From assembly GCF_000248075.1 (NCBI RefSeq), contig NZ_BAFB01000005.1:62001-126000 (forward strand): a stretch of DNA of 64,000 nt, given 5' to 3'. The position numbers and the translations under genes are program-made. Below the pieces are notes generated by a model. It searched no databases. It was not told the DNA's origin and saw only the letters and a program-made list of their open reading frames with translations. The DNA comes from Gordonia otitidis NBRC 100426. Lineage in GTDB: Bacteria > Actinomycetota > Actinomycetes > Mycobacteriales > Mycobacteriaceae. Positions 49,391-64,000 of this stretch are shown one piece after another (position 1 is the stretch's first letter; the number at the start of each line of letters is the position of its first letter).

Positions 49391-50923
49391 ATGCATGACG
49401 TCTCGATCGACGCACAGAGACGTTGGCGTGTCGATGAGGTCGGGTATGCGTCCGCGGCGCAGACTTCTTTGCCACCGGAGCGGTCGACGCTGTCTTTCGA
49501 CGATGCGGATTCCGACCCTGCCGGCGAATTGTTGCGTCGGTGGCGCGAGGAACGCGTTGCCACGAGCTCCATAAACGGGAACGGTGCGGCTTCGGCCGTG
49601 AATGGGTTTGTCGGCGATTCCCTGCGACAGGGCAGCCGACCCGAGGTCGGGTCGGTGTCCGGAGGCGCCGGCTCGATCGCCCGGCAAGCGACCACGCCCG
49701 TCGGCCGCCACGCCGCCGTCGACGGCGAGAGTCCTGCCGTTGGTCCGTTGGGCGGGCGCGGACCGGGGAAGCCGATCGGTGACGTCGAGAATCTGGTGCC
49801 GGCATCGTGGCGGGAGCACAGCACATCCGACTCAGATTCGTGGACGCCCCGACAGCGGGGTCCTGCGGTCTCGCCGGACGAGGTCGCCGACACCGCTCGA
49901 CCAAGCGCTGCGCCGGAGTCGTCGTCGGCGGATCCCGCCACGGCGATCCCCGCGCGCGATCTGGCGATCGAAGCACGCAATCTGCGCAAGCAGTTCGGCG
50001 ACACGGCGGCTGTGTCGGATGTGAGTTTCGAGGTCGCCAGCGGCAGCATCGTCGCGCTGCTCGGCCCCAACGGAGCGGGCAAGACGACCACCGTCAACAT
50101 GCTCTGCACATTGCTCAAACCCGACGGCGGGCACGCTCAGGTCGCGGGGCATGACGTCTCGACGGACCCAGCCGCCGTGCGGAGATCGATCATGCTGACC
50201 GGGCAGTTCGCCGCGCTCGACGAGTCCCTCTCGGGGCGAGAGAATCTCATCCTGTTCGGCAGGCTGTTGGGATTGTCGAAGTCAGCGGCCAAACAGCGGG
50301 CAAACGAGCTGCTCGAGATGTTCTCGTTGTCCGACGCCGCGAAGAAGCGAGTGGGGCAGTATTCGGGCGGAATGCGTCGACGGATCGACATCGCGTGTGG
50401 TCTCGTCGGTTCGCCGAAGGTCGTCTTCCTCGACGAACCGACCACCGGTCTGGATCCCCGTAGTCGTTCGGACGTCTGGACTCTCGTGGAACAGTTACGC
50501 GACAACGGGGTGTCCGTCCTGCTCACGACCCAGTACCTCGAAGAGGCGGACATGCTCGCCGACCGCATCGTCGTGATCGACAAGGGAACCGTGATCGCCG
50601 ACGGCACGGCGGACCAGCTCAAGGCCGCGATCGGTAAATCGTACTGCGAGGTCACACCTGCCCGGGCCACGGACGTCGATCGCCTGCGAGTGGCGCTGCG
50701 CGACCTCATGGATGCGGACGCGAGCACCGAGTCGTCGATGGTCTCCATTCCTGCCCCGGACGGCCCGCAGACGCTCGTCGAGGTCCTACGCAGAGCCGAG
50801 GCCGCCGATATCGCATTGTCCGACGTCGCGATGCGCCGTCCGTCGCTGGACGAGGTGTTCCTCGTACTGACCGATCCCGATCGTGACCACCCCTCGGGAG
50901 ACAGTGCGGTACAACAACGATGA
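49391..50923 (+). CDS. DrrA-like ABC exporter ATPase with long N-terminal extension
   Basis: 510 residues. The ATPase begins near residue 195 (LAIEARNLRKQFG) and has Walker A GPNGAGKTTT, signature YSGGMRRRIDIA, Walker B VVFLDEPTTGLDPRSR and the C-terminal DrrA-type domain. DrrA-type ATPases power export of antibiotics, siderophores or lipids. The first 190 residues are Gly/Ser/Pro-rich and unlike known DrrA proteins; the opening RRWRVDEVGYASAAQ and the repeated WRE words (LLRRWREE, PASWREHS) are the only ordered-looking parts. Codon use stays typical and the frame has no alternative start with a better ribosome site. It overlaps the permease gene (ATGA). Confidence 0.88.
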   Translation: MHDVSIDAQRRWRVDEVGYASAAQTSLPPERSTLSFDDADSDPAGELLRRWREERVATSSINGNGAASAVNGFVGDSLRQGSRPEVGSVSGGAGSIARQATTPVGRHAAVDGESPAVGPLGGRGPGKPIGDVENLVPASWREHSTSDSDSWTPRQRGPAVSPDEVADTARPSAAPESSSADPATAIPARDLAIEARNLRKQFGDTAAVSDVSFEVASGSIVALLGPNGAGKTTTVNMLCTLLKPDGGHAQVAGHDVSTDPAAVRRSIMLTGQFAALDESLSGRENLILFGRLLGLSKSAAKQRANELLEMFSLSDAAKKRVGQYSGGMRRRIDIACGLVGSPKVVFLDEPTTGLDPRSRSDVWTLVEQLRDNGVSVLLTTQYLEEADMLADRIVVIDKGTVIADGTADQLKAAIGKSYCEVTPARATDVDRLRVALRDLMDADASTESSMVSIPAPDGPQTLVEVLRRAEAADIALSDVAMRRPSLDEVFLVLTDPDRDHPSGDSAVQQR

Positions 50924-51747
50924 CAACCGACGTGCGGGCACAACCCCGGCTGCGGGTCTCCTCGGCGCTGGCCGATGGTGCTCACCCGAAGGCGCTTCAG
51001 CAATGGTGGGCGTTGACGACACGCGGGCTGGCGAAGGTCGTGCGTAACGGCGAGATCATCCTCGCCTTCCTGTCTCCCATCTTCCTTGCCGTCTGCTTCT
51101 ACCTGCCGTTGCGCAAAGTGATGGACTCGCTGCCCGGCGTCAATTACGGGCAGTTCTTGATGCCGATCATCTTGTTGCAGGCGGTCAGCTTCGCGGTGTC
51201 GGCCGCCGCGATGCGGGCCTCGCTCGACGCGACTCAGGGCATCAACACCCGATTTCGCGTGCTGCCCATGAGGGCATGGATCCCCATGCTGGCTCGCACC
51301 GCCACCAACGTGGTGCTGTTGGGTATCGCCATTGGATTCGGTTGCCTTGCGGCGCTCGTCATCGGGTGGAGGCCAGGCGGGGGAGTCCTCGGGACAATCG
51401 GGGTGATCGGGTTCGTCGCGCTCGTCGGCGTACTTCTGTCGATGGTGGCAGACGGAATCGGTCTGGTCGCCGGTTCGCCTGAGGCGACGAGCCAGGCCCT
51501 CATGTTGCCGACGCTCATACTCGGAATGCTCTCGACGGGATTCGTCCCCGAATCGCGGTTTCCCGAGTGGATCCGACCGTTCGCGCGCAATCAACCGATC
51601 TCGCAGTTCGTCGACGTGATGCGTGTCCTCGACTCGCCCGACACGGTCAGATGGGCGACAGTCGGTCCGAGTATCTGGTGGTGCCTGGCCCTGGCAGTCG
51701 CCGCCGTCGTGCTCCTTTTCGTCGGAAGCAGGAGGGTGCGGACGTGA
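50920..51747 (+). CDS. ABC-2 type permease (DrrB-like)
   Basis: 275 residues with about six helices of the ABC-2 fold. The amphipathic start (WWALTTRGLAKVVRNGEIILAFLSPIFLAVCFYLPL, in part) and the motif FVPESRFPEWIRPFARNQPISQFVDVMR are the conserved DrrB features. It starts by ATGA overlap with the ATPase and ends by GTGA overlap with the next permease, so the three form one transporter. Confidence 0.9.
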   Translation: MTTDVRAQPRLRVSSALADGAHPKALQQWWALTTRGLAKVVRNGEIILAFLSPIFLAVCFYLPLRKVMDSLPGVNYGQFLMPIILLQAVSFAVSAAAMRASLDATQGINTRFRVLPMRAWIPMLARTATNVVLLGIAIGFGCLAALVIGWRPGGGVLGTIGVIGFVALVGVLLSMVADGIGLVAGSPEATSQALMLPTLILGMLSTGFVPESRFPEWIRPFARNQPISQFVDVMRVLDSPDTVRWATVGPSIWWCLALAVAAVVLLFVGSRRVRT

Positions 51748-52583
51748 GCCGGGAATCAGGCGCACTCGTCGCGACGTCGGCACAAGCCGTTGCGCCTCTG
51801 CCGGAACGGTCCTTTGCCGCATGGCTCAGGCAGAGTCGTACTCTCTCGGGTCGGCAGTTGTTGGTGACCGTGCGAGATGTCCCCACACTTCTGCAATCGC
51901 TGATCGTGCCCGGTTTGACGCTTGTCATGTTCAACGTGGTGCTCGGTGATTCGCTGGCCGCTGTGACCGGCGAGGACAGTATCTACGGAACCGTCCCGAT
52001 GGTCATACTGGTCGGCGCCATGTTCGGTTCGATCGCGTCAGCGGTGCGGCTCAACCAAGAGCGTTCCACCGGGCTGCTGGCACGGCTGTACGTGTTGCCG
52101 ATCAACCGGGCGGCCGACCTGACCTCGCGCGTCGTCTCGGAGCTCGTGCGTGTCGCCGCGGTCACCATCGTTCTGCTTGCGGTCGGCATGGTCATGGGCT
52201 TCCGGTTGCAGCAGGGTGTGGGCGCCGCGCTGGGGCTCTTCGCGGTCGCGCTGGCCTACGGCGCCGCTTTCGCGACGTTTGTGCTGGCCCTGGCCGTCAA
52301 CACTCCTTCAGGGGCACCGCTCGTGCCGATGATCGGACTCGTATCGAGTCTGATGATGTTCTTCAATTCGGGCTTCTCGCCGGTCGAGGCCTATCCGAAC
52401 TGGTTGCAACCGGTGGTGCGGTACCAGCCGATGACCCCTGCGGTCGATTTGATGCGGTCGCTCACCGTCGGTGGTCCGATCGCGCACAACCTCACGATCG
52501 TCTCGATCTGGACCGTTGCGGTCCTAGGGCTTGCGATCTACCCCGCGCTGCGTGGCTACTCGAAGGCCGCGACGGCACGATGA
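51744..52583 (+). CDS. ABC-2 type permease (DrrC-like)
   Basis: 279 residues from the GTG at 51744. Similar in plan to the preceding permease: RQLLVTVRDVPTLLQSLIVPGLTLVMFNVVL (in part) opens helix 1, and NSGFSPVEAYPNWLQPVVRYQPMTPAVDLMR is the conserved motif near the end. It is the partner membrane subunit of the DrrB-like protein. As the NRPS genes follow on the same strand, the exporter probably handles the peptide product. Confidence 0.9.
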   Translation: MSRESGALVATSAQAVAPLPERSFAAWLRQSRTLSGRQLLVTVRDVPTLLQSLIVPGLTLVMFNVVLGDSLAAVTGEDSIYGTVPMVILVGAMFGSIASAVRLNQERSTGLLARLYVLPINRAADLTSRVVSELVRVAAVTIVLLAVGMVMGFRLQQGVGAALGLFAVALAYGAAFATFVLALAVNTPSGAPLVPMIGLVSSLMMFFNSGFSPVEAYPNWLQPVVRYQPMTPAVDLMRSLTVGGPIAHNLTIVSIWTVAVLGLAIYPALRGYSKAATAR

Positions 52584-53316: not shown

Positions 53317-56300
53317 ATGGCAGACGACGCCCAGAACGGTGACGGTCTGATCCCGTTGGAACTCACAGCCGCCCAACGCGGCATGTGGTTCGCGGAGAAC
53401 CTGTCCCAGGGCTACAGCGTCAACATCGCCCAATTCCTCGACATCCGAGACGTCGACAAACCACTCGACACGTCATTGTTCGTCCGAGTGGCAGCGGAAA
53501 CAGGCCACGATCTGGAGCTCGCGTTCACCCGCATCGTCGATGTCGACGGCATCCCCCGTCAGATTGTCGACCAGTCGATCGAGAACAGTGTTCGTCTGCT
53601 CGACCTGCGGCACGAATCCGACCCCGAGTTCGCCGCACGACAATGGATGAATGCCGACTACCAGAGTGAGACGAACCTGCTGGAGGATCGACTGGTCGAG
53701 TCGGCGCTGATACGGGTCGCCGACGACCGTCATCTCTGGTACCTGCGTGCGCATCACATCGCACTCGACGGGTACGCCGCGCTCACGGCGGTCAGAGAGG
53801 TCCTCGAGCGCTACAACGCGGCGCTGCGCGGGTTGGAGCATCGCTCGCCTGTCGGAGCATCGTTGGCGGAGATCGTTGCCGACGACCAGAAGTACCAGAT
53901 GAGCTCACGTCGTGAGTCGGACCGCGCGCACTGGGCGGAGACCGTGCAAGACCTGCCCGAGCGCGTGACCCTGGCGCGTCGCGCCGCCACCGCGGCACTC
54001 GTCCCGCAGAACCTCGTCGCCGGTCGGCAGCTCACTGCGGAAGAGCAGGACGTACTCGATCAGACCGCGCGGGCGACGAGTTCGTCGGCCGCGGTACTGC
54101 TGACCGCCGCGTTCTCGGCATACCTCGCGCGAGCGGCGACAACTGACGATGTGGTGCTCAGTCTGCCCGTCACCGGTAGGGCGACAGCAAAGATCAAGCG
54201 CGGCAGCGGCATGCTCGCCAACATGCTGCCGGTGCGGGCACGTGACGTGTCGCGCTCGTCGATGCGCGGGCTGATCGAGCAGATGCAACGCGAACTCACC
54301 GGAGCTCTACGTCATCAGCGGTACCGATTCGAGGACATCCGGACCGATGCCGGCCTCGCGGACACCAATACCGCGTCGTTCGGCCCGATCGTCAACCTGA
54401 TGTTCTTCGACCAGCCGATCGAGATCGAGGGCGCCGAGGTCGATTACCGCATTCTGTCGTCGGGAATTCTCGAGGACCTGCGGCTCAACATCTACCAGGC
54501 GAGCCCGGGGGCTCCCGTGGTCATCGATCTCCACGGCAACCCGAATGTGTACGGGAGTGCAGAGTTGCAACAGCACGTCGATCGGTTCTCGGCGTTCTTG
54601 TTCCGCGCCCTCGACGATCTCGACGCACTGATACTCGATGTTGACTTCCTGATGCCCGGTGAGCGCGAGGAAATCTTGCAGTGGGGCATTGGGCCTTGTC
54701 TCGATGTCGATCGCGGCGGACATCTACTCGACGCTTACCTTGCGCAACTGGACGCCAGACCGGACACCACGGCAGTCGTCTTCGGCGATCGCAGACTCAC
54801 CCTGCATGAATTCGACGCTGTACGCCGACGATTCGCCGGTTTGCTGCACACGCGAGGTGTCGGCGTCGGCGACAACGTGGTCGTCGTTCTCGACCGGAGC
54901 GTCGAGCAGGTGGCGGCGCTATACGCGATAGTCACCCTCGGTGCCGCCTACGTGCCGGTGGATCCGCAGCAACCCGACCATCGTCGTCGCACGATCATCG
55001 AATCGGTCGAGGCGGCCGCGGTGGTCGACGAGGCGTTCTTGTCCGACATCGCGTCGACCTCGGTGGCGTCGTGGTCGGGGGGAGTGCACGGTGGCGGTGA
55101 CCACGGCGCGTATGTGATCTTCACGTCGGGATCGACAGGTGTGCCCAAGGGAGTCAAGGTGTCACACCGGGCGATAATCAATCGACTGGACTGGATGCAG
55201 GACGAGTACGGCATCGACGCCGACGACACCATTCTGTACAAGACGCCCTACACGTTCGACGTGTCCGTGTGGGAGTTGTTCTGGCCTCTGCGGCAGGGGG
55301 CGACGATGGTGATCGCACCTCCGGGCGCGCACCGCGATCCCGACCAGATCTCCAGACTCATCGCCGATACCGGGGTCACGACGCTGCATTTCGTGCCCTC
55401 CATGCTCGACGTCTATACCGAAGTCGTTGCTGCAGAAAAGCATCGGAAACTGTTCGCCTCATCGGTACGACGCGTATTCGCCTCGGGTGAGGCACTGCCT
55501 GCAACCCTTGCCTCACGGGTTCTCGCCGAGTCATCGGCGGAACTGATCAATCTGTACGGGCCGACCGAGGCTGCGGTCGATGTGACCGCACATCGGGTGA
55601 CCGCCTCCGAGGATGTCGTTCCGATCGGTCGGGCGGTTGCGAACACCGACGTGTACGTGCTCGACAAATGGCTTCAGCCGGTCCCGGTGGGTGTGCCCGG
55701 CGAACTCTATCTCGCCGGTTGCCAGCTCGCCGACGGCTATGTCGGTCGAACTGCACTGACTTCCGAGCGATTTGTGGCGAATCCATTGCAGGGCACAGGA
55801 ACCCGGATGTACCGTACCGGCGATCTGGTGCGGTGGTCGGCCGACCATGAGATCGAGTACCTGGGGCGCAGCGACTTCCAGATCAAGATCCGCGGACAAC
55901 GTGTCGAGTTGGGCGAGATAGAGGCTGTGCTGTGCGAAGCGCCAGGCATCGACACCGCCGCTGTCGTCGCGCGTACCGACCTCGGTTCGGCACCGGTACT
56001 CGTGGCGTACGTGCGTACCGCGGACACTGTGACAGACGAGGCAGAGGCATTGGCGTGGTGTCGACGGCATCTTCCGTCGCATATGGTTCCGCACGCGGTC
56101 GTCACGATGACGGAATTCCCCACCAACGCGTCGGGGAAGCTGGATCGGGCGAGCCTGCCCGTGCCGGGCGTGCGGGCCGAGACCGCGTACGTGGCACCGC
56201 GTACCCGGATCGAACGCCTCCTCGCCGAACTCACTGCCGATGTGCTCGGCGTGGACCGGGTCGGTATGCGCGACAACCTGTTTGTTCTCGGTGCAGATTC

Positions 56301-59300
56301 GTTGACGGCGGCCAGGCTCGTGTCCCGGGCACGAACCGAGCTCGACATCCACTTCAACCTCGCGACGTTGTTCAGCGTCGACAACATCGGTGATCTGGCT
56401 GCGGCCGCACGGGTTTCCGACGGCGGACGGCCTCGTCTCCAGCCGGTAACCGAGCGGCCCGCAATCATCCCGGTCTCCCCACTGCAAGTCCGTCTGTGGT
56501 TCCTCAACCGGATGAACCCGTCGTCGGGGGTCTACAACATCTCGGGAGCCGTCCGACTACCCGGCGGTGTCGATCGCGCGGCATTGAACGCTGCGGTCGC
56601 CGAGGTCGTCGCACGTCACGAGCCGTTGCGGACGCGGTTTCCGATGGTCGGTGGCGAGCCCGTCCAGGACGTCGTCGCCGTCGAGGATGCCAAGCCGACG
56701 GTGCACGACATCGACGTCGACGGCACTGACGGACGGACTGCGCTTCTTGCCGAGGCCGCCAGGGGTTTCGACCTCCTCACCGAAATGCCGCTACGGGTGT
56801 CACTGCTCGACGAGCCAGGCGGCGCTGTCGTCTTGGTGGTGCTCCACCACATCGTGGGAGACGGGTTCAGCCTTCCGCCGTTGATCAATGACGTGTTCTC
56901 GGCCTACACACGACATCTTGCGGGTGACACCACCGCCCGGCCGGCTCCCGCGGTGTCCTACGTCGATTACACGTTGTGGAGCCACGAAGCGCTCGGCAGC
57001 CTCGACCATCCCTCCGCCGATGCCAAATCCTCACTGGATTTCTGGCGCGCCGAACTGGCCGGGATGCCCGACATGCTCGCCCTCCCGACAGACCGTCCGC
57101 GACCCCCGGTCGCGAGCGGAGCCGGCGCCTACTACGACTTTCCTATTGACGCCGAACTCTCCTCGGCCGTCCGGGAATTCGCCCGCTCGCGGTCGGTGAC
57201 GCCGTTCACGGTGCTCCACGGCGCGCTGGCGATCGTGCTCTCGCGGTGGTCGGGGCAGAACGATGTCGCGATCGGTACCGCGACGGCAGGCCGAGACGAG
57301 CCTGAGCTCGCCGAACTGATCGGTATGTTCGTGAACACCGTCGTACTGCGTACGTCGGTCGCATCCGAGGATTCGATCGCAGACCTACTCGCGAAGGCGC
57401 ACGCGGTGCGTACGCGTGCACTGGCACACGCCGACATTCCGTTCGATCGCGTGGTCGATGCCCTCACACCGGCGCGTGCGGCTTCGCGGTCGCCGTTGTT
57501 CCAGGTCGCCTTCACCATGTACCCCGGGCAGAACGCCGCCCTGCACGAGCTGGTGCCCGGTGCCGAACTCGTCGATGCTCGCGTGCCTGCAGCCAAATTC
57601 GACCTCGCGATCACCGTGACCGACGATGATCAGCCGGATTCCGGTGGCCACTCGGTAGGCTACGACGTCGAGTTCTCCTATGCCACAGATCTGTTCGATC
57701 AGAGCACAATCGCAGACCTGAGTGAGCAATTTCGTTCCGTCGTCGGAACGCTGGTCGCCGCCGACCCCGGCATGCGGGTCGGTGCAGTCGATTTGGTGCA
57801 ACGCCGACCGGTCGTCTCCGACGAGGTCACGCCGAAACCCGCGGCCTTCGCGCATGTGCTCGCCGGAGGTCTCGCACAGGCCCAGCTCGATGCGATCGCA
57901 GTTCATGGTGATCGCGACGTCACCTGGGCGAGCATGGAGGCGGAGTCCAATCAACTCGCCCGGGAACTGTGCTCCCGTGGGATCGGTCGGGGCGACGTGG
58001 TGGCGATCGCGATTCCTCGGTCGGTGCACTCCGTACTCGCTACGGTCGCGGTTGCGAAAGCCGGTGCGGCCTTTGTGAGTATCGATCCGGCACATCCGGT
58101 GGCCAGACGCGCGGAGATCGTCGACGACAGCGGCGCCACATTGGGAATCAGTGTGCGTGACGTGTCGTCGACGCTGCCGCCCACTCTCGACTGGCTGACG
58201 CTCGACGACGAGAATACGGAGCTTCAGCTGGCAGGCCACAGCGGCGCCCCGCTGCGGTCGGAAGAACTGTCCGACGTTCCGCGTCTCGACGACCTGGCGT
58301 ACCTCATCTACACCTCGGGCTCGACCGGGAAGCCCAAGGCGGCGGCGGTGAGTCACCGTGGTCTGGCCAACCTGGTCGGTAACCAGCGTCGAATCCTGGG
58401 ACTCGACAAAGCGTCGCGTGTGCTGCACGTGGCCTCGCCCAGCTTCGACGCGTCCATCTTCGAGATCCTCATGGCGTTGGGAGCAGGCGGTGCGCTCGTC
58501 GTGAGCCCGCCCGGTGTGTTCGGCGGGGCTGAGCTGGAGAACCTCATTGCAACGCAACGGATCACGCATGCGGTGATGACGCCATCGGCGCTGGCCACAC
58601 TCGATCCGACGCGGGTTCCTGACCTGTCGCACGTCATCAGCGTCGGCGAAGCATGCCCGCCGGAGTTGTCACGGCGCTGGGTACGAGCAGGACATGCCTT
58701 CTACAACCTGTACGGACCGACCGAGGTCACGATCTGGGCGACCGCGGCGGGACCGCTGTCGGAGTCCGACGAGGTCCCGATCGGCAGTGAGGTGCCCGGG
58801 GTCGTCGCGCACGTCCTCGACCACGCCCTACGGCCTGCGGCGCCCGGTGTCCCCGGCGAGCTCTACCTCAGCGGCGTACAACTCGCGCGCGGCTATCACC
58901 GCCGTCCCGACCTGACCTGTGGCCGCTTTGTAGCCGATCCGTTCGGTAGCGGTGGACGCATGTATCGCACCGGTGATCGCGTAGTGCGCGATCGTGACGG
59001 CATACTCCGCTACCTCGGGCGCGTGGACTTCCAGCTGAAGCTTCGAGGTCTGCGTATCGAGCCGGGCGAGATCGACGGTGCGCTGCACGAACATCGCGCG
59101 GTCGACCATGCCGTCAGCGTGGGTGTTCGGGGACCCGCAGGCGACGATGTGCTGGTGTCTTACGTGGTACTCCTGCCGGGTGCTCGGGCGACACCCGGGG
59201 ATCTGCTTTTGCACGTATCGGGGCGGCTGCCGGAGTACCTGGTGCCGCGAAAGATCGTGATCGTCGACAACTTTGTCCTGACCGCCGCGGGCAAGGTCGA

Positions 59301-61350
59301 CCGACAGGCGTTGCCGCCAGTCGACTTCGACGACGAAACACCACACGTCGCGCCGCGCACCCAGATCGAGACGCTCATCTCCGATGTCTTCTGCGACGTG
59401 CTGGGCACATCGCGCGTCAGTGTGGTGTCGGACTTCTTCGACCTGGGCGGCAATTCGCTGTCGGCCACGAAGGTCGCCGCGCGTGTCGGCACAGTGTTGG
59501 ATCGTACGATCCCGGTCCGGATGATCTTCGAACATCCGTCCGTCGCCGAGTTGGCCCGACAACTGTCCACGGGAAACTCGTCCGGCTCCGTGACACCGCT
59601 GCGTCCGCGCAGCCGTGCGGAGATGGTTCCGGTATCGGAGATGCAACGCGGTCTGTGGTTGATCAACCAAGCTGATCCCGCATCGGCCGCCTACAACGTG
59701 GCTCTGGCACTTCGTCTCGACGGCGAACTCGACGTCGTGGCACTCGATCTCGCTCTCAAGGACCTCGTCGCACGCCACGAGGCGTTGCGCACCGTCTACC
59801 CGATGGTCAACGGCGAGCCGATTCAGGTGATCATGCCCGCGGACGGGGATTGGACGGAAACCTTGTCTCTGCGTAGCGAACCGGCAGGTTCTGGCGGTGC
59901 GATAGCGGAGATCACCGGCAAGGGATTCGATGTGACCGCAGAGCTTCCCGTTCGCGCAGCTCTGCTGGACGTGGCGGAGAACTCGAGCGTCTTGGTTGTC
60001 GTGGTCCACCACATCAGCGCCGATGGGGGATCGATGTCGGCGCTCGCGAGGGACCTCATGGCCGCCTATGGTTCCCGTCGTCTCGGCGCTGAACCGTCGT
60101 GGCAACCTTTGCCCATCCAGTACGCCGACTACAGCCTGTGGCAGGCGGATCGGTTGTCGACGGTGACCAACGGACAGTCCGAGTGTGAACGACAGCTCGA
60201 CTATTGGCAGCGACGACTGGACGGGATCGGCGACCGCCTGGACCTGCCGACCGACCGAGTTCGGCCCAGGAATCCGACATTTGCCGGCGACGCAGTGAAT
60301 TTCACCATTCCCGCGGAACTCGCGACGGAGTTGGAGCGCATCGCTCACGAGCATCGATCGACGTTGTTCATGGTCACGCAGGCAGCCTTCGCCGTGCTGC
60401 TGAGTCGACTGTCCGGTCAGGCAGACATCGTCATCGGAACTCCGTTCGCCGGCCGCGGAGAACAAGGCCTCGACGAGGTCGTCGGGATGTTCGTGAACAC
60501 CCTGGCCCTGCGTACCACGGTGGACTCGAGCGAATCCTTCACGGATCTGCTGGGGCGTGTCCGGCGTGACGACCTGGTGGACATGTCGAACACGGATGTC
60601 GCATTCGACACCATCGTCTCCAGAGTGCTGAAGGGGGCGCCTACATCGCACAATCCGATCTACCAGGTGATGTTCGCGTTCCAGAATCTGGATTTCCCGC
60701 GACTCGATCTCGGAGATCTGACAGTGACGCCGGTCAGCGAGGAACTCTCGGCGGCCAAGGTGGACTTGCAACTGAGTCTGTTCCCACAGGACCCGGGAGG
60801 GTCTGCCACCGAGGACCTGCGTGCCCAATTGCTTTTCGCAACAGATCTTTTTGATCGGTCAACGATCGAACGGTTCGCTCAGAGGTACGTGACCCTGCTC
60901 CGCTCCGTCGTCGATGGCAGCGACCACGCGGTCGGCGACCTGTCCATTCTGTCGTCGGACGAAGTCCGTGCAGATGTCGACACCGCATCTGAGGAGCCGT
61001 CTCCGCCTCTGCCGGACGCCATCGCGCGGGCAGCGATTGCGGCACCTGCCGGCACCGCTGTCGATTTCGGCTCGGGGTCGGTCAGCTTCGCTGATCTGGA
61101 TCTGATGGCGCAGGCAATGCAGGCGACGACGCCAGACCGGGATTCCGCGTTGACGGTGGCATTGATGACGTTGGTGCCGGACCTGGCCGCGGCCGGTCCC
61201 GAGCAATTCGACGCGGTGCTGACCGAGCTTGCCCAACATGCTGCCGCCGCGATCGCTGGCGTGGGTTCCGCTGGCGACCCGGCTACAGATGACACGACTG
61301 CCGACGGCGATATTGGTGTCGAATCGATGGATCCCAGGGGTTGCCCGTGA
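53317..61350 (+). CDS. Non-ribosomal peptide synthetase, C-A-T-C-A-T-C plus truncated A-like tail
   Basis: 2677 residues; GAGGAGG lies 7-8 bp before the ATG. Domains read from motifs: C1 (HHIALDG, His146), A1 (TSGSTG, 603), T1 (GADSL, Ser995), C2 (HHIVGDG, 1177), A2 (TSGSTG, 1666), T2 (GGNSL, Ser2047), C3 (HHISADG, 2231). No epimerisation, cyclisation or thioesterase domain is seen. A1 specificity residues read DVWHFSLVDK, a Ser code, and C1-A1 follows EntF in layout, suggesting an acyl starter on Ser. A2 reads DAFVIVLIWK, which I cannot assign. After C3 there is no full A domain, only a segment (about 2565-2650) resembling an A-domain N-terminus. The stop overlaps the next NRPS gene (GTGA). 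Confidence 0.95.
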   Translation: MADDAQNGDGLIPLELTAAQRGMWFAENLSQGYSVNIAQFLDIRDVDKPLDTSLFVRVAAETGHDLELAFTRIVDVDGIPRQIVDQSIENSVRLLDLRHESDPEFAARQWMNADYQSETNLLEDRLVESALIRVADDRHLWYLRAHHIALDGYAALTAVREVLERYNAALRGLEHRSPVGASLAEIVADDQKYQMSSRRESDRAHWAETVQDLPERVTLARRAATAALVPQNLVAGRQLTAEEQDVLDQTARATSSSAAVLLTAAFSAYLARAATTDDVVLSLPVTGRATAKIKRGSGMLANMLPVRARDVSRSSMRGLIEQMQRELTGALRHQRYRFEDIRTDAGLADTNTASFGPIVNLMFFDQPIEIEGAEVDYRILSSGILEDLRLNIYQASPGAPVVIDLHGNPNVYGSAELQQHVDRFSAFLFRALDDLDALILDVDFLMPGEREEILQWGIGPCLDVDRGGHLLDAYLAQLDARPDTTAVVFGDRRLTLHEFDAVRRRFAGLLHTRGVGVGDNVVVVLDRSVEQVAALYAIVTLGAAYVPVDPQQPDHRRRTIIESVEAAAVVDEAFLSDIASTSVASWSGGVHGGGDHGAYVIFTSGSTGVPKGVKVSHRAIINRLDWMQDEYGIDADDTILYKTPYTFDVSVWELFWPLRQGATMVIAPPGAHRDPDQISRLIADTGVTTLHFVPSMLDVYTEVVAAEKHRKLFASSVRRVFASGEALPATLASRVLAESSAELINLYGPTEAAVDVTAHRVTASEDVVPIGRAVANTDVYVLDKWLQPVPVGVPGELYLAGCQLADGYVGRTALTSERFVANPLQGTGTRMYRTGDLVRWSADHEIEYLGRSDFQIKIRGQRVELGEIEAVLCEAPGIDTAAVVARTDLGSAPVLVAYVRTADTVTDEAEALAWCRRHLPSHMVPHAVVTMTEFPTNASGKLDRASLPVPGVRAETAYVAPRTRIERLLAELTADVLGVDRVGMRDNLFVLGADSLTAARLVSRARTELDIHFNLATLFSVDNIGDLAAAARVSDGGRPRLQPVTERPAIIPVSPLQVRLWFLNRMNPSSGVYNISGAVRLPGGVDRAALNAAVAEVVARHEPLRTRFPMVGGEPVQDVVAVEDAKPTVHDIDVDGTDGRTALLAEAARGFDLLTEMPLRVSLLDEPGGAVVLVVLHHIVGDGFSLPPLINDVFSAYTRHLAGDTTARPAPAVSYVDYTLWSHEALGSLDHPSADAKSSLDFWRAELAGMPDMLALPTDRPRPPVASGAGAYYDFPIDAELSSAVREFARSRSVTPFTVLHGALAIVLSRWSGQNDVAIGTATAGRDEPELAELIGMFVNTVVLRTSVASEDSIADLLAKAHAVRTRALAHADIPFDRVVDALTPARAASRSPLFQVAFTMYPGQNAALHELVPGAELVDARVPAAKFDLAITVTDDDQPDSGGHSVGYDVEFSYATDLFDQSTIADLSEQFRSVVGTLVAADPGMRVGAVDLVQRRPVVSDEVTPKPAAFAHVLAGGLAQAQLDAIAVHGDRDVTWASMEAESNQLARELCSRGIGRGDVVAIAIPRSVHSVLATVAVAKAGAAFVSIDPAHPVARRAEIVDDSGATLGISVRDVSSTLPPTLDWLTLDDENTELQLAGHSGAPLRSEELSDVPRLDDLAYLIYTSGSTGKPKAAAVSHRGLANLVGNQRRILGLDKASRVLHVASPSFDASIFEILMALGAGGALVVSPPGVFGGAELENLIATQRITHAVMTPSALATLDPTRVPDLSHVISVGEACPPELSRRWVRAGHAFYNLYGPTEVTIWATAAGPLSESDEVPIGSEVPGVVAHVLDHALRPAAPGVPGELYLSGVQLARGYHRRPDLTCGRFVADPFGSGGRMYRTGDRVVRDRDGILRYLGRVDFQLKLRGLRIEPGEIDGALHEHRAVDHAVSVGVRGPAGDDVLVSYVVLLPGARATPGDLLLHVSGRLPEYLVPRKIVIVDNFVLTAAGKVDRQALPPVDFDDETPHVAPRTQIETLISDVFCDVLGTSRVSVVSDFFDLGGNSLSATKVAARVGTVLDRTIPVRMIFEHPSVAELARQLSTGNSSGSVTPLRPRSRAEMVPVSEMQRGLWLINQADPASAAYNVALALRLDGELDVVALDLALKDLVARHEALRTVYPMVNGEPIQVIMPADGDWTETLSLRSEPAGSGGAIAEITGKGFDVTAELPVRAALLDVAENSSVLVVVVHHISADGGSMSALARDLMAAYGSRRLGAEPSWQPLPIQYADYSLWQADRLSTVTNGQSECERQLDYWQRRLDGIGDRLDLPTDRVRPRNPTFAGDAVNFTIPAELATELERIAHEHRSTLFMVTQAAFAVLLSRLSGQADIVIGTPFAGRGEQGLDEVVGMFVNTLALRTTVDSSESFTDLLGRVRRDDLVDMSNTDVAFDTIVSRVLKGAPTSHNPIYQVMFAFQNLDFPRLDLGDLTVTPVSEELSAAKVDLQLSLFPQDPGGSATEDLRAQLLFATDLFDRSTIERFAQRYVTLLRSVVDGSDHAVGDLSILSSDEVRADVDTASEEPSPPLPDAIARAAIAAPAGTAVDFGSGSVSFADLDLMAQAMQATTPDRDSALTVALMTLVPDLAAAGPEQFDAVLTELAQHAAAAIAGVGSAGDPATDDTTADGDIGVESMDPRGCP

Positions 61351-64000
61351 CACGGTTCCGTGCTGACGCAATAACGGTTTCGTCACTGTGGGGCCACCGA
61401 CCGCCGACGCGCGATCTGGTGAGGGCAGCTGCCTCCGTTGCGCCTGATGCCGTCGCGCTGACCGGGCGAGACGGCTCGGTGTCTTTTTCGGATCTCGAGG
61501 CTCGAATCGCGCCTACCGCAGATGTTTTCGCAGCGCGTGGAATGGATACCGAGGCCGCCGTCAGCGCCATCCTCACGACGCTGATCGACAAGGAGGGGCG
61601 CGATGCTCCAGCGATCGCCTCCGCGGTGCAGGGCGGGGTGGTTTCCGTGCGCGACGCTGCCGGGCAGGTCCTCGGCGCGACGAGATGGCGTTCGATCCCC
61701 GACATCTTCGCATCGGTCGTGCGTCGATTCGGTGATCGGCAGGCTGCTCGCGACACGTCGGGCGCTGCCCTGTCGTACCGAGAGCTCGACGAGCAATCAG
61801 ATGCCGTTGCATCCGGGCTTGTACGACGAGGCGCCGGGATCGGTGACGTCGTCGGCCTCGCGGTATCTCGCACCGTCGAGTTGCCGGTCGCCGTTCTCGG
61901 CATCCTGAAAGCGGGCGCGAGTTACCTACCACTCGACGCCTCGCATCCCGCAGAGCGACTGTCCTACGTCGTGGACACGGCTACGCCGAGGCTCATCATC
62001 ACCGATCAGGATGGCAGCGACGCACTGCAGTTCCTCGACGTCGAGTGCGTGACGACGGCTGATGTGAGCATCGATCACGACCAGACGGTGCTTCCCTCGG
62101 CGATCGACGACCGCAGTGCCGCATACATGATCTTCACCTCGGGATCGACCGGTCGGCCCAAAGGGGTCGTCGTCGAGCACCGAAATGTCGTCGCGTTGAT
62201 GGCGGCGTGTCAGGAGCATTTCGGATTCGACGAACACGACGTGTGGACGATGTTCCACTCGTACGCTTTCGACTTCTCCGTGTTCGAGATGTGGGGACCC
62301 CTGTTGTTCGGTGGCGAACTGGTCATCGTCGATCAGCCGACCACGCGTGACCCGGTGCGCTTTGCGCAGCTGCTCCGACAGTTTTCGGTCACCGTGGTGT
62401 CCCAGACACCGTCCGCGTTCTACCAGCTGGCCTCTGCCGTGCGAGGAGACGCTGCCACACCGCTGGCATCGAGCGTCAAATTCGTCGTATTCGGTGGTGA
62501 GGCTCTCGATTTCGCGCAGATCGGCCGCTGGTATGCGAATCGATCGAATGATGCCGAACGCGACGAGGCCACGGTGCCCGGCCCGCAACTGGTCAACATG
62601 TACGGAATCACCGAGACCACGGTGCACACCACCGTGCGGTTCCTCGATGCCGATTTCGTCGAGCACGCGCACGGATCCGACGTGGGTGGGGGACTCCCCG
62701 GCCTGCGCGTGCACCTTCTCGACGACCGATTGCGCGGCGTACCGGACGGCGTGCCCGGGGAGATCTACGTGTCCGGCGGGCAGGTGACCCGGGGCTACCT
62801 GGAGCAGCCCGGACTGACCGCGACACGTTTCGTGGCCGATCCGTTCAGCGGCGACGGCTCGCGGATGTATCGGAGTGGTGACCTCGGTATCTACCGCGAC
62901 GGTGCACTGGAGTATCTCGGCAGATCCGATACACAGATTCAGTTGCGCGGCTTCCGAATCGAGCTCGGCGAGGTGGAGACCGCGCTTCTCGGTGCGACCG
63001 GTGTGGAGGCCGCTGCCGCCGATGTTCGCCCGAACGCGGCCGGTACCGAACTCCTGGTCGGCTATGTCGTTCCGTCGGGGGAGGCGCACGCCGCGGGTGA
63101 CGTCGATGTTGCGGAGGTCCGGCGTACGGTCGGCGATCGTGTTCCGGGCTATATGGTGCCCGACATCGTGATGATCGTCGACAGGCTGCCGCTGACGGTC
63201 AACGGCAAGCTCGACCGCAAGGCGTTGCCCGATCCGGTCGTCGACGCGACGGTCGAGTATGTCGCCCCGGAGACCGATGTCGAACAGGCGCTGGCCGAGA
63301 TCGTCTGTGAGGCATTGGGGCTGAATCGGATCAGCGTCGTCGAGTCGGTGTTCGACGTCGGTGCCAATTCGTTGTCGGCTGCGCGGATTGTCGGGCGCAC
63401 GTGCGAAGAACTCGGCATCGACCTGAATCTGCGTGATCTGTTCGACGCCCCCTCGATTCGTGAACTCGCGGCAAGAGTAGGCGATCTCGATGCTGCTCTG
63501 CCGCCGGTGAGTGCCGGTGGGGTCAGGCCTGAACACATCCCGCTGTCGTTCGCGCAGAGTCGGATCTGGTTCATCAACCGGTTCAGTGATGGTACGGATG
63601 GTTACATCATCCCGGTTCTCATGCAGGTACGGGGTCGGCTCGACATCGACGCGCTGCGGACCGCGGTGTCGGACGTCGTCGCCCGCCATGAGGTGCTGCG
63701 CACGGTCTATCCGGCAATCGACGGAGAGCCGTATCAACGCATCGAGTCGGGCAGCGGGCCATCTGGCGAGATCATCCCGGGAGATGTCGATTTCTCTGTC
63801 GTCGCATCGAAAAGCGATGTGGCCGAGGCGATTCGAGCCGGCTTCGACGTGACGAACCAGTGGCCGATCAGGATTCGTGTTCAGCAGGTATCGGACGACG
63901 AGTACGTATTGGCCCTGATCCTGCATCACATTGCGGCAGACGGGGAATCGTTGACGCCGTTCTTCGGTGATCTGACGGCCGCGTATGCCGCGCGAGTGCA
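61347..64000 (+). CDS. Non-ribosomal peptide synthetase, truncated A-like head plus A-T-C (3' end outside window)
   Basis: 884 complete codons are visible from a GTG overlapping the stop of the first NRPS gene. Residues about 22-96 resemble an A-domain N-terminus (GSVSFSDLEA) but break off; a complete A domain starts near 118 (IPDIFASVVRRFGD, then TSGSTG at 264, YGITETTVH, and NGKLDRKALP). T3 follows with GANSL (Ser675), then a C domain with HHIAADG (His860). Specificity residues read DFFSVGMVHK, close to the Thr code DFWNIGMVHK. The A-T pair completes the module begun by C3 of the upstream protein, so module 3 is split across two polypeptides. Later modules and any thioesterase lie beyond the window. 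Confidence 0.94.
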   Translation, partial: MTRFRADAITVSSLWGHRPPTRDLVRAAASVAPDAVALTGRDGSVSFSDLEARIAPTADVFAARGMDTEAAVSAILTTLIDKEGRDAPAIASAVQGGVVSVRDAAGQVLGATRWRSIPDIFASVVRRFGDRQAARDTSGAALSYRELDEQSDAVASGLVRRGAGIGDVVGLAVSRTVELPVAVLGILKAGASYLPLDASHPAERLSYVVDTATPRLIITDQDGSDALQFLDVECVTTADVSIDHDQTVLPSAIDDRSAAYMIFTSGSTGRPKGVVVEHRNVVALMAACQEHFGFDEHDVWTMFHSYAFDFSVFEMWGPLLFGGELVIVDQPTTRDPVRFAQLLRQFSVTVVSQTPSAFYQLASAVRGDAATPLASSVKFVVFGGEALDFAQIGRWYANRSNDAERDEATVPGPQLVNMYGITETTVHTTVRFLDADFVEHAHGSDVGGGLPGLRVHLLDDRLRGVPDGVPGEIYVSGGQVTRGYLEQPGLTATRFVADPFSGDGSRMYRSGDLGIYRDGALEYLGRSDTQIQLRGFRIELGEVETALLGATGVEAAAADVRPNAAGTELLVGYVVPSGEAHAAGDVDVAEVRRTVGDRVPGYMVPDIVMIVDRLPLTVNGKLDRKALPDPVVDATVEYVAPETDVEQALAEIVCEALGLNRISVVESVFDVGANSLSAARIVGRTCEELGIDLNLRDLFDAPSIRELAARVGDLDAALPPVSAGGVRPEHIPLSFAQSRIWFINRFSDGTDGYIIPVLMQVRGRLDIDALRTAVSDVVARHEVLRTVYPAIDGEPYQRIESGSGPSGEIIPGDVDFSVVASKSDVAEAIRAGFDVTNQWPIRIRVQQVSDDEYVLALILHHIAADGESLTPFFGDLTAAYAARV

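Follow-up and report, generated by a model that had tools for sequence, protein, structure and literature searches.

Paired domains resembling the start of adenylation domains at a condensation/adenylation split in Gordonia synthetases: a candidate docking pair

How could a nonribosomal peptide synthetase (NRPS) module be held together when its condensation (C) and adenylation (A) domains are carried by different polypeptides? The question is raised by the window, a 64,000-nucleotide stretch of Gordonia otitidis NBRC 100426 that forms part of a 129,658-base contig in a 5.29-Mb genome. Here the cut between two adjacent NRPS genes falls inside module 3, leaving C3 on NRPS1 and A3-T3 on NRPS2 (Table 1). 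The motifs HHISADG in C3 and FTSGSTGRPKG in A3 are intact by reading. NRPS2 has the order head-A-T-C and extends beyond the window; its GTG start candidate gives a 4-base overlap with the NRPS1 stop, the TTG being an alternative. A sequence-only reading had noticed that the facing ends of the two subunits, the tail of NRPS1 and the head of NRPS2, carry short segments resembling the beginning of an A domain, and we recovered both at the positions claimed, on either side of the C3/A3 split. We term the units X; the tail has ∼85 residues and the head ∼100. Just 5' of NRPS1, at 49391–52583, an ABC-transporter ATPase and two permease-like ORFs were noted by reading, likely an exporter of the NRPS product.

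Table 1. Features around the C3/A3 split of the window
Feature	Position	Strand	Description
NRPS1	53317..61350	+	2677 aa; C-A-T-C-A-T-C, then X-type tail
C3 condensation domain	59620..60963	+	PF00668, aa 2102-2549; directly 5' of tail
Tail X domain	61006..61260	+	aa ~2564-2648 of NRPS1
Variable C-terminal extension of tail	61261..61347	+	
NRPS1/NRPS2 junction	61341..61350	+	NRPS1 stop TGA 61348-61350; candidate NRPS2 starts TTG 61341, GTG 61347
Head X domain, NRPS2 N-terminus	61389..61688	+	
A3 adenylation domain (core and C-terminal part), NRPS2	61713..63209	+	PF00501, PF13193
NRPS2 T domain	63285..63479	+	PF00550
Next C domain of NRPS2	63531..64000	+	Continues past window end

Relatedness of tail and head was assessed with profiles. 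As single sequences the two from the window are barely alike (E 0.127 with the tail as query against its own genome), though profiles of 51 tails and 51 heads match significantly, with an hhalign probability of 97.7 and E 1.6e-12 over 83 columns, contrary to the first of the refuting results named beforehand. Pooling Gordonia and Rhodococcus-type rows brought the tail–head comparison to E 9e-24, versus 0.45 when one profile was column-shuffled. Among six X types, all 15 profile pairs match, at E 8e-24 to 2e-4 over 61–100 columns; column-shuffled controls gave E 0.04 or worse.

Likeness to the A-domain start was also borne out, over partial length (45–56 columns for tail and head). The head profile matched the LgrA A domain in the PDB at E 9.3e-10, over profile positions 14–56; the tail is weaker, with a best PDB match of E 0.043 and E 3.9e-6 to a small profile of local A-domain starts. 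Matches of the X types to A-domain starts span 27–69 columns only, at E 1e-10 to 4e-4 (45–69 columns) for five of the six types and 0.005 for the sixth, SA2 (see below). PF00501 was matched by 25 of the 51 heads and 3 of the 51 tails (E up to 1) and by none of the remainder, the window head covering positions 2–53 of the 384 in that profile. Past position ∼60, X units resemble each other and not A domains. The later A-domain core motifs and the C-terminal subdomain are absent from these units of ∼85–100 residues. The Pfam and NCBIfam scans made held no family for X; the internal X of locus L191 drew A-domain models, best at 1.7e-6. By sequence comparison, the front of X and the N-terminal segment of PF00501 are of common descent. 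The earlier description of truncated A segments fits that front and the missing core motifs, but not the rear: X reads as a domain with an A-like front and a rear of its own rather than a bare truncated A domain, because the A likeness is limited to the front and the rear resembles only other X.

Profile searches for co-occurrence at C/A splits, which the sequence-only reading had proposed, found it throughout Gordonia. Tails were matched in 56 of 59 genomes and heads in 57 of 59, a head count that includes G036, whose sole listed match is weak (5e-4), lies inside a 14,517-residue ORF and is probably an ordinary A start. In 56 of the 59 genomes there were 76 tail matches with a head directly downstream, 0–218 bases from match to match. 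A start codon overlapping the stop by 4 bases was available in 59 of these 76 pairs, and was chosen by script wherever available. The Gordonia list also held three further heads and nine weak tail matches without a partner (E 8.7e-4 to 9.6e-3). Three of the nine are heads caught by the tail query (G016, G037 C13 and G045); the other six are G033 C205, G005 C64, G037 C15, G014 C74, G037 C50 and G029 at 1048930. Partnerless tails had been named beforehand as evidence against a pair; there was no head-less tail among the clear tails examined, a set outside which the six weak matches fall.

Other genera showed the same arrangement. In Rhodococcus, Prescottella, Rhodococcoides and Antrihabitans, 35 of 35 named loci, all picked by tail profile match, have one subunit ending in C-tail and the next starting with a head; an A domain follows the head in 34, the head of L250 being a separate short ORF. 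Tail and head were likewise present in 20 of 20 further loci of the family, also picked by tail match, among them L231 with broken ORFs. The locus sets overlap, some named loci belonging to genomes also counted under G handles. Immediately past the head, L250 (P. defluvii) and L231 (G237) both show a break in the reading frame of the downstream NRPS. When the phylum was scanned at E 1e-6 using Rhodococcus-type tails, with 14 candidates scored per genome, matches came from 4 of 346 genomes (3 of 218 genera), all in the window's family; the 346 include an uncounted number of genomes of this family. At E 1e-3, with 18 candidates scored per genome, a family scan reached 195 of 301 genomes and 22 of 31 genera, which is not a true count of X carriers, as that threshold may admit ordinary A-domain starts. 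The mycobacterial glycopeptidolipid synthetases Mps1/Mps2 were considered as X carriers on a guess from ORF length and dropped; the named loci are those of the four genera given above. The recurrence of paired X in many genera of one family looks like an undescribed way of holding giant enzymes together.

X is not confined to split sites, the one setting that the sequence-only reading had in view. In unsplit mega-NRPSs it occurs between C and A twice, with no third copy, in 10 of 10 ORFs read (most nearly whole, G070 about half). In those read from the start, the copies are in modules 3 and 5 (X3 and X5), two modules apart. Among the matches listed in the family scan, two X copies were present in 33 of 33 mega-NRPS ORFs, 30 of which have them at a spacing of 6735–6921 bases; for G075, G147 and G074 the second X was found by other models. 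The G115 mega-ORF was shortened at a joint (one-base overlap), and both of its X are also in one unjoined stretch (L191). In addition, 11 of 11 loci picked by small-ORF match (L166–L176) contain two small X genes, one tail-type (SA1) and one head-type (SA2), without a C or A domain. In three of the four such loci read closely (L171, L172 and L176, not L166) an mbtH-like gene, so assigned by reading, lies between the two; at these three the X–mbtH-like–X arrangement is directly upstream of an NRPS gene. An SA pair was found upstream in five of ten mega-NRPS clusters, a count that leaves out the upstream DNA of G063 and covers only ∼2 kb for G070 and G105. Because unsplit synthetases contain X whole between C and A, and X also exists as small free proteins, it constitutes a separate domain family and is not what one cut left behind.

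Some heads have no tail close by. G004 and G045 each have one tail and two heads, and G007 has two tails and three heads. At a second C/A cut in G004 and G045 (L142 and L143), the last domains of the upstream NRPS are C and a dead A core that has neither the P-loop motif nor the C-terminal part, and the next NRPS starts with a head; X tails may have passed through such a degenerate core as they arose. In G007 the subunit upstream of one head has a thioesterase-like end (by reading), and in G119 an additional subunit opens with a head that is preceded by A-T as the last domains modelled. No tail was found in the ∼3.8 kb before the heads of L194–L196, whose genomes have adjacent tail/head matches on other contigs (L296; G222, G264). 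Only ∼0.3 kb of contig precedes the head of L293, and for the head of L204, at first sight an orphan, there is a tail ∼10.5 kb upstream on an NRPS. One tail may serve alternative heads where heads are in surplus.

An X tree (163 rows, 106 columns) had long branches and rough support. Rhodococcus-type heads form one clade (100/96), as do Rhodococcus-type tails (95/98), the latter with four A rows that were probably misplaced by poor trimming. SA1 groups with Gordonia tails (98/97) and SA2 with Gordonia heads (100/99), so the two types remain partnered even as free proteins. Internal X3 sequences are not a single clade; nine of the ten group (99/99) with both the tail and the head of L197 and L198. 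This placement suggests a second, independent cut that would have duplicated an internal X. The proposal that the pair arose when one module was cut and part of its A domain duplicated thus gains a separate case of duplication, but X domains intact in unsplit synthetases and free proteins do not fit the cut as their source. A synthetase with tail and head both in the internal-X3 clade was noted at L197, L198 and L289 (G119, G135).

Co-evolution was measured as partial correlation of pairwise distances. In Gordonia (75 of the 76 pairs usable, L130 being too short), tail and head distances given C and A had a partial r of 0.40, a value that 0 of 2000 permutations reached. Other values in this set were 0.46 for tail–C, 0.37 for head–C3, 0.18 for head–A given tail and C, and −0.03 for tail–A given C and head. 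Class I alone (62 pairs) gave 0.43 for tail–head, again with 0 of 2000 permutations as high, versus −0.39 in class II (13 pairs), with 1980 of 2000 as high. For the named Rhodococcus-type pairs (34 of 35 used) the tail–head value was 0.15, with 71 of 2000 permutations as high, and head–A was higher at 0.48. Support from co-evolution is clade-dependent, being clear in Gordonia as a whole, absent in its class II and weak in Rhodococcus-type pairs.

For structure prediction, AlphaFold2 was given natural in-frame tail–head stretches of Rhodococcus-type relatives, with the stop treated as a residue; folding was restricted to in-frame fused rows because MAFFT with single rows put tails and heads on the wrong half. 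Run 1 (9 rows) had pLDDT 78.6 and pTM 0.60, and run 2 (15 rows) mean pLDDT 84.4 and pTM 0.48. Both models of these relatives show two folded domains, each alpha-beta-beta-alpha-alpha-alpha. Neither model of the tethered pairs fixed an X:X orientation, so direct X:X contact is unsupported by prediction. A lack of predicted contact had been named beforehand as counter-evidence, and it may hold for these pairs. Foldseek returned no match at E 0.001; A domains and related ligases made up most of its best 50 rows, next to some unrelated proteins that are mainly helical. For the second model, 7 of the best 50 rows superpose 41–43 columns on A domains or related ligases at 1.0–1.4 Å. With VIA the first model scored best against FadD5 (Z 5.2). 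No beta-hairpin docking domain was found among the best 50 Foldseek rows or the VIA matches listed.

As in docking pairs generally, cognate elements stand at the facing ends of adjacent subunits, with some extra heads lacking a nearby tail. In the parts of PMC9113145 available to us, COM, PAX and beta-hairpin docking classes are described, none derived from an A domain or placed at C/A, and docking occurs for the most part from one module to the next, at carrier/C or E/C junctions. Beta-hairpin docking domains of the TubC, EpoB and Kj12 type are, like the head, small N-terminal domains of an NRPS subunit. Their domain is alpha-beta-beta-alpha-alpha, and X is predicted to be alpha-beta-beta-alpha-alpha-alpha. 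Their partner, however, is a short linear motif (SLiM), a C-terminal peptide of <15 residues, whereas that of X is a whole homologous domain of ∼85 residues after C. They sit at PCP/C or PCP/Cy (the other neighbours surveyed, in the text available, include no A), unlike X, at C/A inside one module and with a sequence that derives from an A domain. COM and PAX, which set the order of NRPS subunits, resemble X in being pairs on facing subunit ends, but COM is a helix-hand at E/C and PAX a three-helix bundle at PCP/C, neither A-derived (PMC9113145, as available). Both are helical, whereas X domains are predicted to carry a beta-hairpin and lie at a C/A junction. The accessible text does not place COM or PAX inside unsplit chains or as free-standing pairs; X occurs in both. 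Closest in position are the synthetic zippers that type S NRPSs carry in the C-A linker (PMC8362031, seen in part), which also rejoin C/A-cut NRPSs in trans; those are engineered coiled coils, and X would be a natural counterpart. The portions seen of a Rhodococcus paper (PMC5550956) make no mention of docking, split or linker, those of a Gordonia paper (PMC9680422) none of docking, and those of PMC10212144, on NRPS architecture, name no such domain. The earlier statement that no docking class of this form is described agrees with our literature searches, in which no title or abstract start named an X-like domain, with weak coverage of subscription journals, most of which lay outside it.

We consider it probable, with some reserve, that the X pair is a docking or assembly domain that evolved from the A-domain N-terminus and brings back together a module whose cut separates C from A. 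X would have arisen from the N-terminal edge of A by gaining C-terminal helices of its own. Tail and head would most likely bind each other, or act as a pair on the C3/A3 platform, with some specificity, letting C3 meet A3-T3 in trans; the X pair, rather than other contacts, would make NRPS2 follow NRPS1. Homology, A descent and conservation at C/A splits support in part the docking proposed from sequence; simple one-to-one docking is made less likely by the AlphaFold2 results on Rhodococcus-type relatives (no fixed orientation, pTM 0.60 and 0.48) and by the extra heads, and internal X domains, sitting where no subunit needs docking, also count against docking. The two X at fixed mega-NRPS sites and the tail- and head-type identity of the free proteins favour pairing. 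A wider and distinctly more tentative version would make X a general pairwise staple for giant NRPSs, all copies stemming from the A-domain N-terminal edge: one tail-type and one head-type copy would rejoin split modules, X3 and X5 of the unsplit ∼11,300-residue synthetases would pair and fold the assembly line back across two modules, the free SA1/SA2 pair would be a loose clamp, and dead A cores such as those of L142 and L143 would be an intermediate stage.

X could be a C-A spacer or scaffold that packs against the C or A domain next to it and gives the C-A platform its shape with no X:X binding, the two split-site copies being leftovers of a cut through a C-X-A junction. Single intact X domains between C and A in mega-NRPS modules 3 and 5, the missing X:X orientation, and a tail that tracks C in Gordonia and a head that tracks A in the named set speak for a scaffold; yet SA1 and SA2 are kept as tail- and head-type partners without C or A, and in Gordonia the head follows the tail and C3 more than its own A. 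We regard the scaffold as a real but less likely rival. Recruitment of a third protein, such as an MbtH-like protein or a tailoring enzyme, to the split module would suit the mbtH-like gene between stand-alone X genes, but the two MbtH genes of the window genome are both on another contig (C198) and the two paralogous X copies per split would go unexplained, making this improbable. Least credible is that X is evolutionary debris left without function by gene fission and by recombination between modules. The dead A cores that end the upstream subunits of L142 and L143 show that pieces of A can survive at cuts of this kind; against debris, paired X persists in 56 of 59 Gordonia genomes and, in other genera, at 35 of 35 named loci, with conserved positions and a confidently predicted fold.

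If the X pair does serve docking, a natural pair joining a C/A-cut module would reveal how the geometry between C and A is maintained in trans, and how part of a catalytic domain turned into one for assembly. It would also be a ready engineering part for the C-A linker, where synthetic zippers are now used (PMC8362031, seen in part). In the unsplit mega-NRPSs, two X at fixed sites make the spatial arrangement of such enzymes directly testable.
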